Positions 22,992 to 51,316 of a stretch of DNA of 64,000 nt are shown here, piece by piece. A model generated the notes under the pieces. It had not been told where the DNA came from. It worked only from the letters and a program-made list of their open reading frames with translations, and searched no databases. Source of the stretch: Pseudomonas lutea (lineage in GTDB: Bacteria; Pseudomonadota; Gammaproteobacteria; Pseudomonadales; Pseudomonadaceae); contig NZ_JRMB01000003.1 in NCBI RefSeq assembly GCF_000759445.1, forward strand, positions 124,001 to 188,000, in the 5' to 3' direction. Each line of letters begins with the position of its first letter. The first letter of the stretch is position 1. Position numbers and translations under genes: made by a program.

Positions 22992-24329
22992 TCACGGCTT
23001 GCGCAGATGCTCCAGCAGTTCCTGCGTCGGATAACCGTCCGCGGGCCAGCCAAAGGATTGCTGCGCGCTGCGAATCGCCTTGCGCGTGTTGGCGCCGATG
23101 ATCCCGTCAGGGGCGCCTGCGTCGTACTGTCGGGCCGAGAGCAGCGTCTGCAGCTCGATGCGTTCGGATCGGCTCAACGGACGATCGCCCCGCGGCCAAT
23201 CTCCTTGCACGTAACCACCGCCCGTAAAACGCTCCGACAACAGCCCGATTGCCAGCGCATAGGACGAAGAGTTGTTGTACTTGAGGATGGCGCGGAAGTT
23301 ATCCATCACCAGAAATGCCGGGCCTTTATAGCCCGCAGGCAGCAACAGGGCCGCCTGTTGCTGCAAGAGATTGGTCGGCAGCGCTGACCCGTTTGGCAAT
23401 TTCAGCCCCAGTTGTTGCCATTCGCCGATGGGTTTTCGGGTTGAGGCATCCGCGAGTGCGTAATCAAAACCCTGCGCCAGTTGCACCTCAAACCCCCAGG
23501 GCTGGCCTTTCTGCCAGCCTGAGCTTTGCAGGTAGTGAGCGGTGGACGCGAGGGCATCGGCCGGGGAGTTCCAGATGTCCCGGCGACCGTCTCCGTCGAA
23601 GTCGACGGCGTGGGTGTTGTAAGTGGTGGGGATGAACTGGGTCTGGCCCATCGCCCCGGCCCAGGAACCCAGCATGCTCGGCGCATCGATATCGCCATGC
23701 TGGATGATCTGCAAGGCGGCGATCAATTGGTCCTGCGCGAACTGTGGGCGACGTCCCTCATAGGCGAGCGTTGCCAGGGAGCGAATCACCGACTGCGTGC
23801 CCTGGAACTGGCCAAAGCTGCTCTCCATGCCCCATACGGCCACCAGTGCCTGACGATCAACACCGTAGCGCTGCTCGATAGCGCTCAGCGAGTCAGCGTA
23901 TTGGCTTAGCAGCGCCTGCCCCTTGCGCACACGCACTGCTGACATCGCGCCGTCCAGGTATTCCCACACGGGGCGGCTGAATTCAGGTTGGCTGCGATCG
24001 GCCTTGACCACGCTCATGTCAGGGGTGACGCCGATGAAGGCTTTATCGAACACGTCCGGCCGCACGCCGGCGCTCAGCGCCTGAGCGCGGAACTGGCTTT
24101 GCCATTCACTGAAACTCATGGCCGGCTGGATTTCGAAATTGCCGTCATCAGGTTGCGCGACGGCACCTGAGGGCGCGGGCAGGCTCTTGACGATTTGTGC
24201 CGCGGGCGCGGACTGAAGAGGGGTGGCAACTGCAGCGGTAGGCTGCTCGGCACAGGCCACCAGCGCGAAGAGGCTGGAAGCGGCGATCAACTGGCGAAGG
24301 TGCCAGCGACGGGGAAAGCTTGGGAGCAT
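22992..24329 (-). CDS. MltB-family lytic murein transglycosylase with peptidoglycan-binding domain
   Basis: A 445-residue lipoprotein (lipobox LVAC, Cys26). Residues about 80-370 form the MltB-type SLT domain with the catalytic Glu in VWGMESSFGQFQGT, then SWAGAMGQTQFIPTTY and FDGDGRRDIW. The C-terminal 60 residues are a PG_binding_1 domain ending YPTQELLEHLRK. It cleaves glycan strands at the inner face of the outer membrane. The ATG at 24329 is chosen although no clear ribosome site is present; a GTG four codons earlier is the alternative. It is a second, divergent paralogue of the mltB gene at 17018. Confidence 0.9.
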   Translation of the reverse strand: MLPSFPRRWHLRQLIAASSLFALVACAEQPTAAVATPLQSAPAAQIVKSLPAPSGAVAQPDDGNFEIQPAMSFSEWQSQFRAQALSAGVRPDVFDKAFIGVTPDMSVVKADRSQPEFSRPVWEYLDGAMSAVRVRKGQALLSQYADSLSAIEQRYGVDRQALVAVWGMESSFGQFQGTQSVIRSLATLAYEGRRPQFAQDQLIAALQIIQHGDIDAPSMLGSWAGAMGQTQFIPTTYNTHAVDFDGDGRRDIWNSPADALASTAHYLQSSGWQKGQPWGFEVQLAQGFDYALADASTRKPIGEWQQLGLKLPNGSALPTNLLQQQAALLLPAGYKGPAFLVMDNFRAILKYNNSSSYALAIGLLSERFTGGGYVQGDWPRGDRPLSRSERIELQTLLSARQYDAGAPDGIIGANTRKAIRSAQQSFGWPADGYPTQELLEHLRKP

Positions 24330-24416
24330 TCTGGGGTCCACAGGTATAAACCGTAAGGTGCAGACCTTAACATGCCGGCCCAGTCGATGGGGGGCCAGAC
24401 AGGTAACGCAGTGTTT

Positions 24417-24575
24417 TCAAGCCGCCATAACGGAAGAAGCCTCCCAGCTTTTAGACTGGAAGGCTTCGCGGCGGTAGCTGCCTTTGCCCTTGCCGGGTTG
24501 TTCCTGACGGCTGCGGAACAATGGCTGGGCGATGATGGATTTGGCCTTGTTCGGCCGCTTTTTGGCTTTGCTCAT
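24417..24575 (-). CDS. arfA: Alternative ribosome-rescue factor A
   Basis: ArfA frees ribosomes stalled on mRNA without a stop codon by recruiting release factor 2, as a backup to tmRNA. The 52-residue protein has the family core: PLFRSRQEQ (18-26), KGKGSY (29-34) and WEAS (44-47), in a Lys/Arg-rich context. It starts at the ATG at 24575 with GCGAGAA upstream. The 3' third of the reading frame contains a strong hairpin, as in E. coli arfA, where cleavage yields nonstop mRNA whose product is destroyed by tmRNA unless tmRNA fails. The family call rests on these motifs; the gene is short and easily missed. Confidence 0.88.
   Translation of the reverse strand: MSKAKKRPNKAKSIIAQPLFRSRQEQPGKGKGSYRREAFQSKSWEASSVMAA
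24436..24467 (-). promoter_or_regulatory. Regulatory hairpin inside arfA
   Basis: On the minus strand a 12-base arm (24467-24456) pairs with 24447-24436, all Watson-Crick except one G-U, around an 8-base loop. It begins at codon 37, just after KGKGSYRR. In E. coli an equivalent stem is cut by RNase III or ends transcription, leaving arfA mRNA without a stop codon. No long T-run follows, so cleavage fits better than termination here. Confidence 0.75.
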
Positions 24576-24702
24576 GGCGTTCTCGCTCAAGTAGTGAAGT
24601 GAAGCGGGGGAGATAATCTGCCAGACCGGGGCGGGTGTCCAATTGACCTGAGCTATCAAGTATTTGCTCGTGTCGCTATGCCGGCTTATTCACGATTCAA
24701 AC

Positions 24703-24790
24703 TGTAGGAGCCGGCTTGCTGGCGAACGCGACCTTTCAGGTACACCTGAGTGAGGCAAGAAGCCGTTTCGCCAGCAAGCCGGCTCCTACA
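24703..24790. repeat. REP doublet, class gccggcttgctggcgaa
   Basis: Left arm from 24703 and right arm ending at 24790 are inverted complements. It lies between the holA end and the arfA start on the minus strand, where it may act as an mRNA 3' barrier for holA. Confidence 0.86.
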
Positions 24791-24851
24791 GGAAGGTGGA
24801 GGGCCTGAAGATAGCAGGTCTGGCGGATTTGGCAGGTAGTCCCGTGGGCCA

Positions 24852-25889
24852 CTATTCCGAGGGCAGAGCCAACCGCTGGCCTGCCATCAGCAGGGCCAGC
24901 CGGCTTAGGCTACTCCAGACTGAGCCCGCCGCCTGGCCTTTGATTTGAGCGTCGATGTGTTGAGCGTCCATCAACAGTTGACCCCAGCGTCGCGCGGAGT
25001 GGCGTTGCAGGGCTTTGCTCATCAACGGCTTGCGCTTGTCCCAGATGGGCGGACGCGCCTGACTGAATGCTTTGTCCAATGGGATACCCTGGCTGAACTG
25101 CAATGCCAGATTGGCCAGCACACGCAGCTCACGGGACAGCGCCCAGAGAATGACCGGAGGTTCGACGCCTTCGCCGCGCAGGCCTTCAAGCATCCGCAGC
25201 GCGTGAGCCGCTTCGCCATTGAGGATGGCGTCAGTCAGACCGAAAACATCGAAGCGCGCGCTGTCAGCCACTGCTGCCTGTACGGTTTCGACAGTGATCT
25301 GGCCTTCGTCAGCCATCAGCTTGAGCTTTTCGATTTCCTGCGCGGCCGCCAGCAGGTTACCTTCGACCCGCGCGGCGATGAGTTCGATGGCGTCCGGCGT
25401 CGCGGCCAGGCCGGCCTGCGAGAGCCGCTGACGAATCCATTGCGGCAGCTGGCTGGCATCCACCGGCCAGATCTGCACGAACTGGGTCTGCGGGCCTTCG
25501 ACCAGCGCCTTGCCCCACTTGGTTTTCTGCGCCGAACCGTCCAGCTTGGGCAGGCTGATCAGCAGCAGCGTGTCTTCGGCGGGGCGACCGCAGTATTCCA
25601 GAAGCGCTGCCGCGCCTTTGTCCCCGGGCTTGCCGGAAGGCAGACGTAACTCCAGCAGTCGGCGCTCAGCAAACAGCGACATGCTCGCACCCGCCTGGAG
25701 CAGCGTGCCCCAGTCGAAGCTAGAGTCAGCGCTGAACACCTGGCGTTCGTCAAAGCCCTGCTGACGTGCAGCCGCGCGAATGGCATCGCACGCTTCCTGG
25801 CACTGGAGAGGGTCATCGCCGCTGACGATGTAGACAGGCGCTAGCGCACCCTGGAGGTGTTTTGAAAGTTGGGCGGGGGCGAGTTTCAT
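24852..25889 (-). CDS. holA: DNA polymerase III delta subunit
   Basis: The delta subunit opens the beta sliding clamp within the clamp loader. The 345-residue protein starts MKLAPAQLSKHLQG, has the family phrase PVYIVSGDDPLQCQEA near residue 18 and the later VEGNLLAAAQEIEKL. Length equals the family norm. It follows lptE by 42 bp in the conserved order leuS-lptE-holA. Confidence 0.95.
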   Translation of the reverse strand: MKLAPAQLSKHLQGALAPVYIVSGDDPLQCQEACDAIRAAARQQGFDERQVFSADSSFDWGTLLQAGASMSLFAERRLLELRLPSGKPGDKGAAALLEYCGRPAEDTLLLISLPKLDGSAQKTKWGKALVEGPQTQFVQIWPVDASQLPQWIRQRLSQAGLAATPDAIELIAARVEGNLLAAAQEIEKLKLMADEGQITVETVQAAVADSARFDVFGLTDAILNGEAAHALRMLEGLRGEGVEPPVILWALSRELRVLANLALQFSQGIPLDKAFSQARPPIWDKRKPLMSKALQRHSARRWGQLLMDAQHIDAQIKGQAAGSVWSSLSRLALLMAGQRLALPSE

Positions 25890-51002: not shown

Positions 51003-51290
51003 GTTGAGGGCCTTTAATGAATGGATTGCGCTGGATTATCTATCTGAGGCGAATTATTGCGCAAGCGGTGTTTTCATCAGCAACATTCGCAATCCTGTGT
51101 CGTCTGCCGAAGCCTATTCTTTTAACCAGAATCACTGCCCGGACATAGCGTCCAGCGCGGCCCGCCCAATCAGGCCAGCCGCGGCCTCCAGCCCGACAGG
51201 GTTGATCAGGCCACCGGGCTACGCACTGTCCAGAAGACGATGCGAGGTGAGCCGGCGTCAAAAGCGTCGAGCCAGGACGAAGTATTCGAG

Positions 51291-51316
51291 AGAGGGCCAT
51301 TGAGCCCTCTTTTTTT
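51291..51316 (+). terminator. Orphan intrinsic terminator
   Basis: A 7-bp stem agagggc/gccctct with a CATTGA loop and a run of seven T on the plus strand. No recognised plus-strand gene lies between 51003 and this point, so it probably ends a short RNA or small peptide gene. See the finding for 51100-51316. Confidence 0.8.

Follow-up and report, generated by a model that had tools for sequence, protein, structure and literature searches.

The gene arfA of Pseudomonas lutea, a reading frame of 52 codons with a hairpin close to its 3′ end, raises the question of whether the ribosome-rescue circuit described for Escherichia coli arfA is kept in Pseudomonas and, if so, by what device the stop codon would be lost from the message. 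The gene occupies positions 24417..24575 on the minus strand of the window, the 64,000-nt stretch of DNA analyzed here, and consists of 52 sense codons followed by a TGA stop. Its product matches Pfam ArfA (PF03889) over residues 9-38 (24462..24551, minus strand) with 35.9 bits (cut-off, 25.5), shows 100% identity to the nearest named ArfA proteins, those of Pseudomonas sp. CFBP 13711 and P. graminis, and is the only ArfA copy in the genome; a search of the product against NCBIfam profiles gave no match. The coordinates and the gene assignment of the initial annotation, which left the strand unstated, thus hold. The three motifs listed there as the ArfA signature, PLFRSR, KGKGSY and WEAS, are all found in the translation; the first two lie in the Pfam-matched core. 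Among the matches listed, WEAS is found in 109/120 homologues of the enteric type, 112/120 of the Pseudomonas type and 0/40 from Halomonadaceae, and, because it lies outside the Pfam match and is absent from all 40 of the latter, it is probably better read as part of an RNA motif than as a signature of the protein.

According to RNAfold, codons 37-47 fold into a hairpin of 13 uninterrupted base pairs closed by a loop of 6 nt (minus strand; 5′ arm of 13 nt in codons 37-41, 24455..24467; loop, 24449..24454; 3′ arm of 13 nt, which holds the WEA codons, 24436..24448). A hairpin of 12 bp beginning at codon 37 had been noticed earlier; its first codon is confirmed and its length is corrected to 13 bp. 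The 41-nt hairpin has a folding energy of -23.2 kcal/mol (z -5.0), and none of 200 dinucleotide shuffles is as stable; when the whole 101-nt stretch is folded, z is only -2.2 and 2/200 shuffles are as stable. Judged against synonymous recodings of the same peptide, 176 of 20,000 of which are at least as stable, the stem of the window taken alone is less striking, at about the 1% level. A chance hairpin is ruled out by its conservation across the arfA genes of Pseudomonadaceae.

ArfA is present in 241 of the 249 Pseudomonas genomes sampled, and 140 loci were fetched from these 241. Two of them, L094 and L099, were missed by the motif pattern and stand outside the counts given below; L099 keeps the stem and an LAA end, and L094 has a broken stem and an AAA end. 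The latter is a diverged arfA, with PLF changed and WEAS lost, which is perhaps decaying. A further 80 named loci were added, and, as these are the best 80 of 358 by score, close relatives are over-represented; the sets of 199 genes and 183 3′ ends used below consist of distinct, not independent, sequences. Changes were counted on a 136-taxon tree derived from the neighboring mltB gene, with 5 of 141 long loci left out.

At least 10 uninterrupted stem pairs are found in 196/199 distinct Pseudomonadaceae arfA genes, and a stem mismatch occurs in 14/199, in 2 of these at the end pair only. Codons 37, 38, 39, 45 and 46 show no third-base change at all on the 136-taxon tree, against 2-31 changes each (median 7) in the 21 codons upstream of the stem; the onset of the constraint is not sharp, since the low end of this range (2 changes) adjoins the stem. 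The hairpin measures 23, 26, 29 or 32 nt among the relatives, with a constant stem and a variable loop, a variation that fits an RNA element better than a protein-binding DNA site of set spacing. Taken together, these observations show that the hairpin, late in the reading frame, is maintained by selection acting on RNA. An alignment across Pseudomonas had been proposed as a check for a conserved stem with compensatory changes; the conservation is borne out, and the compensatory changes turn out to be few. Such changes as there are tend to preserve the pairing, as in CAG/CTG to CAA/TTG; three loci combine Gln-to-Arg with Trp-to-Arg, by which the pair is kept and the tryptophan lost. In the class of the commonest length (26 distinct hairpins), 98.5% of the cells are paired, and both the covariation score and the count of double-sided cells exceed those of 500/500 shuffles; the number of pairs with a double-sided change is not above the shuffles in this set, 106/500 of which reach the observed value. 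As 7 of the 13 stem pairs never vary and the best pair has undergone a double-sided change once or so on the tree, compensatory change in the stem is thin.

The bases just past the stem are held by selection too. In the 12-nt tail (TTCCGTTATGGC, 24424..24435, minus strand), T is found at positions 6 and 7 in 199/199 genes and at position 9 in 190/199, and C at position 4 in 187/199. The codon at tail positions 5-7 is NTT throughout, despite 10 residue changes on the tree, and the T-richness of the tail exceeds that of synonymous recodings both over all genes (mean score 2.17 vs 1.14) and in P. lutea itself (2.09 vs 0.61). These data bear on the proposal that the 13-bp stem is a substrate of RNase III, as its counterpart is in E. 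coli. Cleavage there would yield the short ArfA form of 36-44 residues given in the initial annotation, a size that requires the break to fall inside the stem. The E. coli arfA message is indeed cut by RNase III within its stem (PMC3989581, PMC10107115), and the Pseudomonas stem is perfect, with both arms nearly fixed in sequence. It is, however, only 13 bp long and not in the E. coli position, and the P. aeruginosa arfA hairpin is described in a review as shorter than known RNase III substrates (PMC13159725); moreover, a cut in the stem alone would leave the fixed UU 6-7 nt past it unexplained. We regard such cleavage as a possible but doubtful account. If the RNA instead ended 7-9 nt beyond the stem, the truncated ArfA would have about 48-49 residues; with termination about 7 nt downstream of the stem, the P. 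lutea product would stop near codon 49 and be short of Met-Ala-Ala only. A non-stop RNA end just past the stem fits the conserved tail as well.

The residues that such an end would remove form a further conserved feature of the gene. The protein of P. lutea closes with SVMAA after WEAS (Met-Ala-Ala codons at 24420..24428, minus strand), and a tail of 5 residues after WEAS is found in 181/199 genes. Among distinct 3′ ends, 160/183 encode -AA as the last two residues, with LAA in 103 and MAA in 35 of them; the 23 ends of other kinds include LVA (6/183) and -AC after a longer tail (8/183). As a background, only 5/254 ORFs of at least 150 residues in 400 kb of the P. lutea genome end in -AA. The two Ala codons have undergone 38 and 26 third-base changes on the tree and only 10 and 5 amino-acid changes, and -AA is therefore kept as protein and not as RNA. 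It is retained in several lengthened tails (L034, L035, L037, L053, L063 and L076), and the tree shows no fewer than 12 gains or losses of it. The fold also contains an outer stem in which CCGCC, upstream of the hairpin, pairs with GGCGG at the final codons; this was considered as the cause of the -AA end and dropped, since each of the four bases occurs at the third position of the Ala codons. In eight loci (L039, L042-L046, L048 and L081), an 18-residue tail ends in Ala-Cys, as in E. coli ArfA.

The tag encoded by the tmRNA of P. lutea, ANDETYGEQALAA, ends in LAA, as do 29/29 tags recovered from relatives (1 of 30 loci yielded no tag); weak extra matches to RF00023 are found elsewhere in the P. 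lutea genome. Among the matches listed, an -AA end occurs in 112/120 ArfA homologues of the Pseudomonas type and in 2/120 of the enteric type. In E. coli, two C-terminal aspartates stabilize full-length ArfA (PMC3989581). By analogy with this effect, and with a conserved (L/M)AA standing at the extreme C-terminus, we infer that the Pseudomonas ArfA end is a putative built-in SsrA-like degron. A literature search found no report of an SsrA-like ArfA end, and an earlier mention in Schaub 2012 or Garza-Sanchez 2011 is possible; the tag-like end is the addition made here, and the idea of the circuit itself is older.

A related end occurs in a second family, named from the listed homologues as Halomonadaceae, in which ArfA was found in 20/61 sampled genomes. 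Here, the longest stem runs across the stop codon in 14 of the 18 loci in which the core was found, the 5′ arm being drawn from the final codons and the 3′ arm from the 3′ UTR; 11 of these 14 stems have at least 13 bp, a length reached in 3/300 windows of 150 nt taken at random from the P. lutea genome. The idea that Halomonadaceae arfA genes are hairpin-less was refuted once the 3′-UTR sequence was included. Among the matches listed, 35/40 homologues end in QAA and 2/40 in QVA, and the -AA is encoded in the hairpin loop (L142-L144 and L286-L301). In Halomonadaceae too, an -AA end is thus preceded or spanned by a device, here a different one. The fixation of this end outside Pseudomonas can also be taken in favor of a different explanation, according to which -AA is not a degron and is either needed for the folding or function of ArfA or a relic of ancestry. 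Shared descent does play a part, since the end is fixed in Halomonadaceae as well, but the third-base changes at the Ala codons mean that ancestry alone would not keep it. A requirement for function is at odds with a truncated product that would lack the end, and the survival of -AA when the tail is lengthened also argues against a non-degron role. This explanation appears unlikely, and the putative degron is retained in what follows.

How the RNA might come to end past the stem was approached with a terminator score d of the d'Aubenton-Carafa type. The P. lutea stem is GC-rich over its 13 bp, but T makes up 4 of the initial 8 bases of the tail, short of a U-rich tract, and d is -6.5, below the threshold; the hairpin and tail of arfA were not called in a terminator scan of the window. 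A canonical strong terminator is not claimed, as the tail fails the strict test. Over 225 loci, the median d is -2.5 and 65/225 are above 0; among distant arfA genes, d is above 23 in L150, L152 and L156, 6.7 in L155 and 4.7 in L154, and the E. coli arfA hairpin scores -20.5. Within the P. lutea genome, 1/508 coding windows is above -6.5 and none above 0, and 17/252 stretches after genes exceed 0, the scored ends, where present, having a median of 32.7. A low d leaves termination possible, because E. coli arfA scores low though its stem has been described as a terminator. By eye, the stems of L150 and L152 share AGCCTCC, GGAGGCTT and TTTATGG with the Pseudomonas element, a similarity in sequence which suggests that the latter may have descended from a terminator.

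A C is kept at tail position 4 where a synonymous T would improve the U-tract. This would be accounted for if another endonuclease, such as RNase E, cut the tail past the stem and left a hairpin-capped non-stop mRNA. The RNase E motif is RNWUU, and it is present at tail positions 3-7 in 141/199 genes, with an invariant UU; the remaining 58 tails, that of P. lutea among them, lack it. Cleavage of this kind seems quite improbable.

The neighborhood of the gene is simple, with holA upstream (24852..25889, minus strand; TIGR01128, 282 bits) and a lytic transglycosylase gene of the mltB family downstream (22992..24341, minus strand; PF13406, TIGR02283). The eight sampled Pseudomonas genomes in which ArfA was not found have no Pfam ArfA match either; in six of them (L266 and L268-L272), holA and mltB are adjacent and arfA is missing between them, so these neighbors do not need arfA, and in the other two the contig is too short to judge the adjacency. 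That the hairpin serves mRNA protection or the control of mltB, whose match begins 50-99 nt past arfA in 105/136 loci, with full-length ArfA as the working protein, is most improbable, given that the six genomes without arfA and its hairpin still keep mltB and that, in other lineages, the site directly ahead of the stop codon is occupied again, by different devices. Between holA and arfA, there is also a perfect 25-nt inverted pair (24702-24726 / 24767-24791), whose core, GCCAGCAAGCCGGCTCCTAC, is present 14 times in the window, against a chance expectation of none; 12 of these copies face each other in pairs, as REP-type doublets. The sole Rfam match of the window at gathering score lies at 51057-51311 (RF00629, Pseudomonas sRNA P24, 240.5 bits).

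Since the hairpin is conserved in 196/199 genes and the third bases of five stem codons never change on the tree, and the gene is a genuine arfA, the conclusion that the rescue circuit is kept in Pseudomonas, proposed in the initial annotation, is well supported and likely to be right. The reading that joins hairpin-driven loss of the stop codon, removal of the product by tmRNA and ClpXP, and an encoded SsrA-like end, such that only truncated ArfA is stable, is in our opinion probable, with moderate confidence. In this scheme, the hairpin would make most arfA mRNA lose its stop codon, the RNA most likely ending a few bases past the stem through partial transcription termination, possibly with the help of a nuclease. 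At the non-stop end, tmRNA would normally add its LAA-ending tag to the product, which would then be destroyed. Were tmRNA absent or overloaded, the ribosome would be freed by ArfB or by pre-existing ArfA, and the truncated ArfA of about 48 residues, devoid of a degron, would remain stable and function together with RF2. From messages with an intact stop codon, full-length ArfA would be made, whose LAA or MAA end resembles the tmRNA tag and may direct it to ClpXP. Two of the three outcomes would thus share the same kind of degron, and the third alone would be stable. If this is true, a backup rescue factor has copied the tag end of the system that it backs up, and every product made while tmRNA works bears the same degron.

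A further, highly speculative possibility, which we consider improbable, is that ArfA of Pseudomonas and Halomonadaceae acts as a sensor of the ClpXP load, its own SsrA-like end queuing with the tagged proteins. When many ribosomes are non-stop, tagged proteins would crowd the protease and ArfA would be spared, so that backup rescue would rise before tmRNA itself fails; the hairpin would then set the amounts of full-length and truncated ArfA.

Several elements of this circuit have counterparts in systems already described. The stem-loop of E. coli arfA spans nt 146-206 (PMC10070815) and has been described as a terminator and an RNase III site in one (PMC10107115). The arfA genes of E. coli and Pseudomonas have in common the core, a hairpin before the stop codon, the use of the WEAS codons as one arm, and a full-length protein whose C-terminal end looks unstable. 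They differ in the arrangement of these parts: the Pseudomonas stem lies at nt 109-140 with the WEA codons in the 3′ arm, whereas the E. coli WEAS codons (nt 151-162) sit in the 5′ arm, so that the same segment pairs upstream in Pseudomonas and downstream, in a longer stem, in E. coli. Of the features of the E. coli type, a hairpin upstream of the stop codon is thus present in P. lutea, and the long stem in the E. coli position and the long hydrophobic C-terminal tail are not, as only 5 residues follow WEAS; the tail is usually of 5 residues ending in -LAA or -MAA in Pseudomonas and a hydrophobic one of 17 residues ending in GAC in E. coli. The layout, with 13 bp at nt 109-140 instead of a stem at nt 146-206 and WEAS in the opposite arm, is consequently not the same as in E. 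coli, contrary to what had been assumed at the outset. The putative device for stop-codon removal in arfA thus takes different forms in different lineages: hairpins that pair upstream, hairpins that pair downstream and strong terminators are found, as well as, in Halomonadaceae, a hairpin across the stop codon.

Within Pseudomonas, the hairpin and the circuit were already predicted for arfA of P. aeruginosa (PA3990), according to a 2026 review that cites Schaub et al. 2012 (PMC13159725). The passages of this review considered here call the C-terminus hydrophobic and mention neither an SsrA-like end nor the conserved tail or tree-based conservation. In Bacillus subtilis, brfA also encodes a short rescue factor, with an in-frame hairpin device that removes the stop codon and control by trans-translation, but it is described as evolutionarily unrelated, and its device, demonstrated by experiment, is a standard terminator carrying a distinct run of T (PMC6881298). 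With the SsrA (tmRNA) tag itself, the ArfA end shares the C-terminal LAA, and natural ArfA ends include, in 6/183 cases, LVA, a variant that is used as a degron (PMC9382460); it differs from the tag in being encoded by the gene and in lacking the preceding AND... part.
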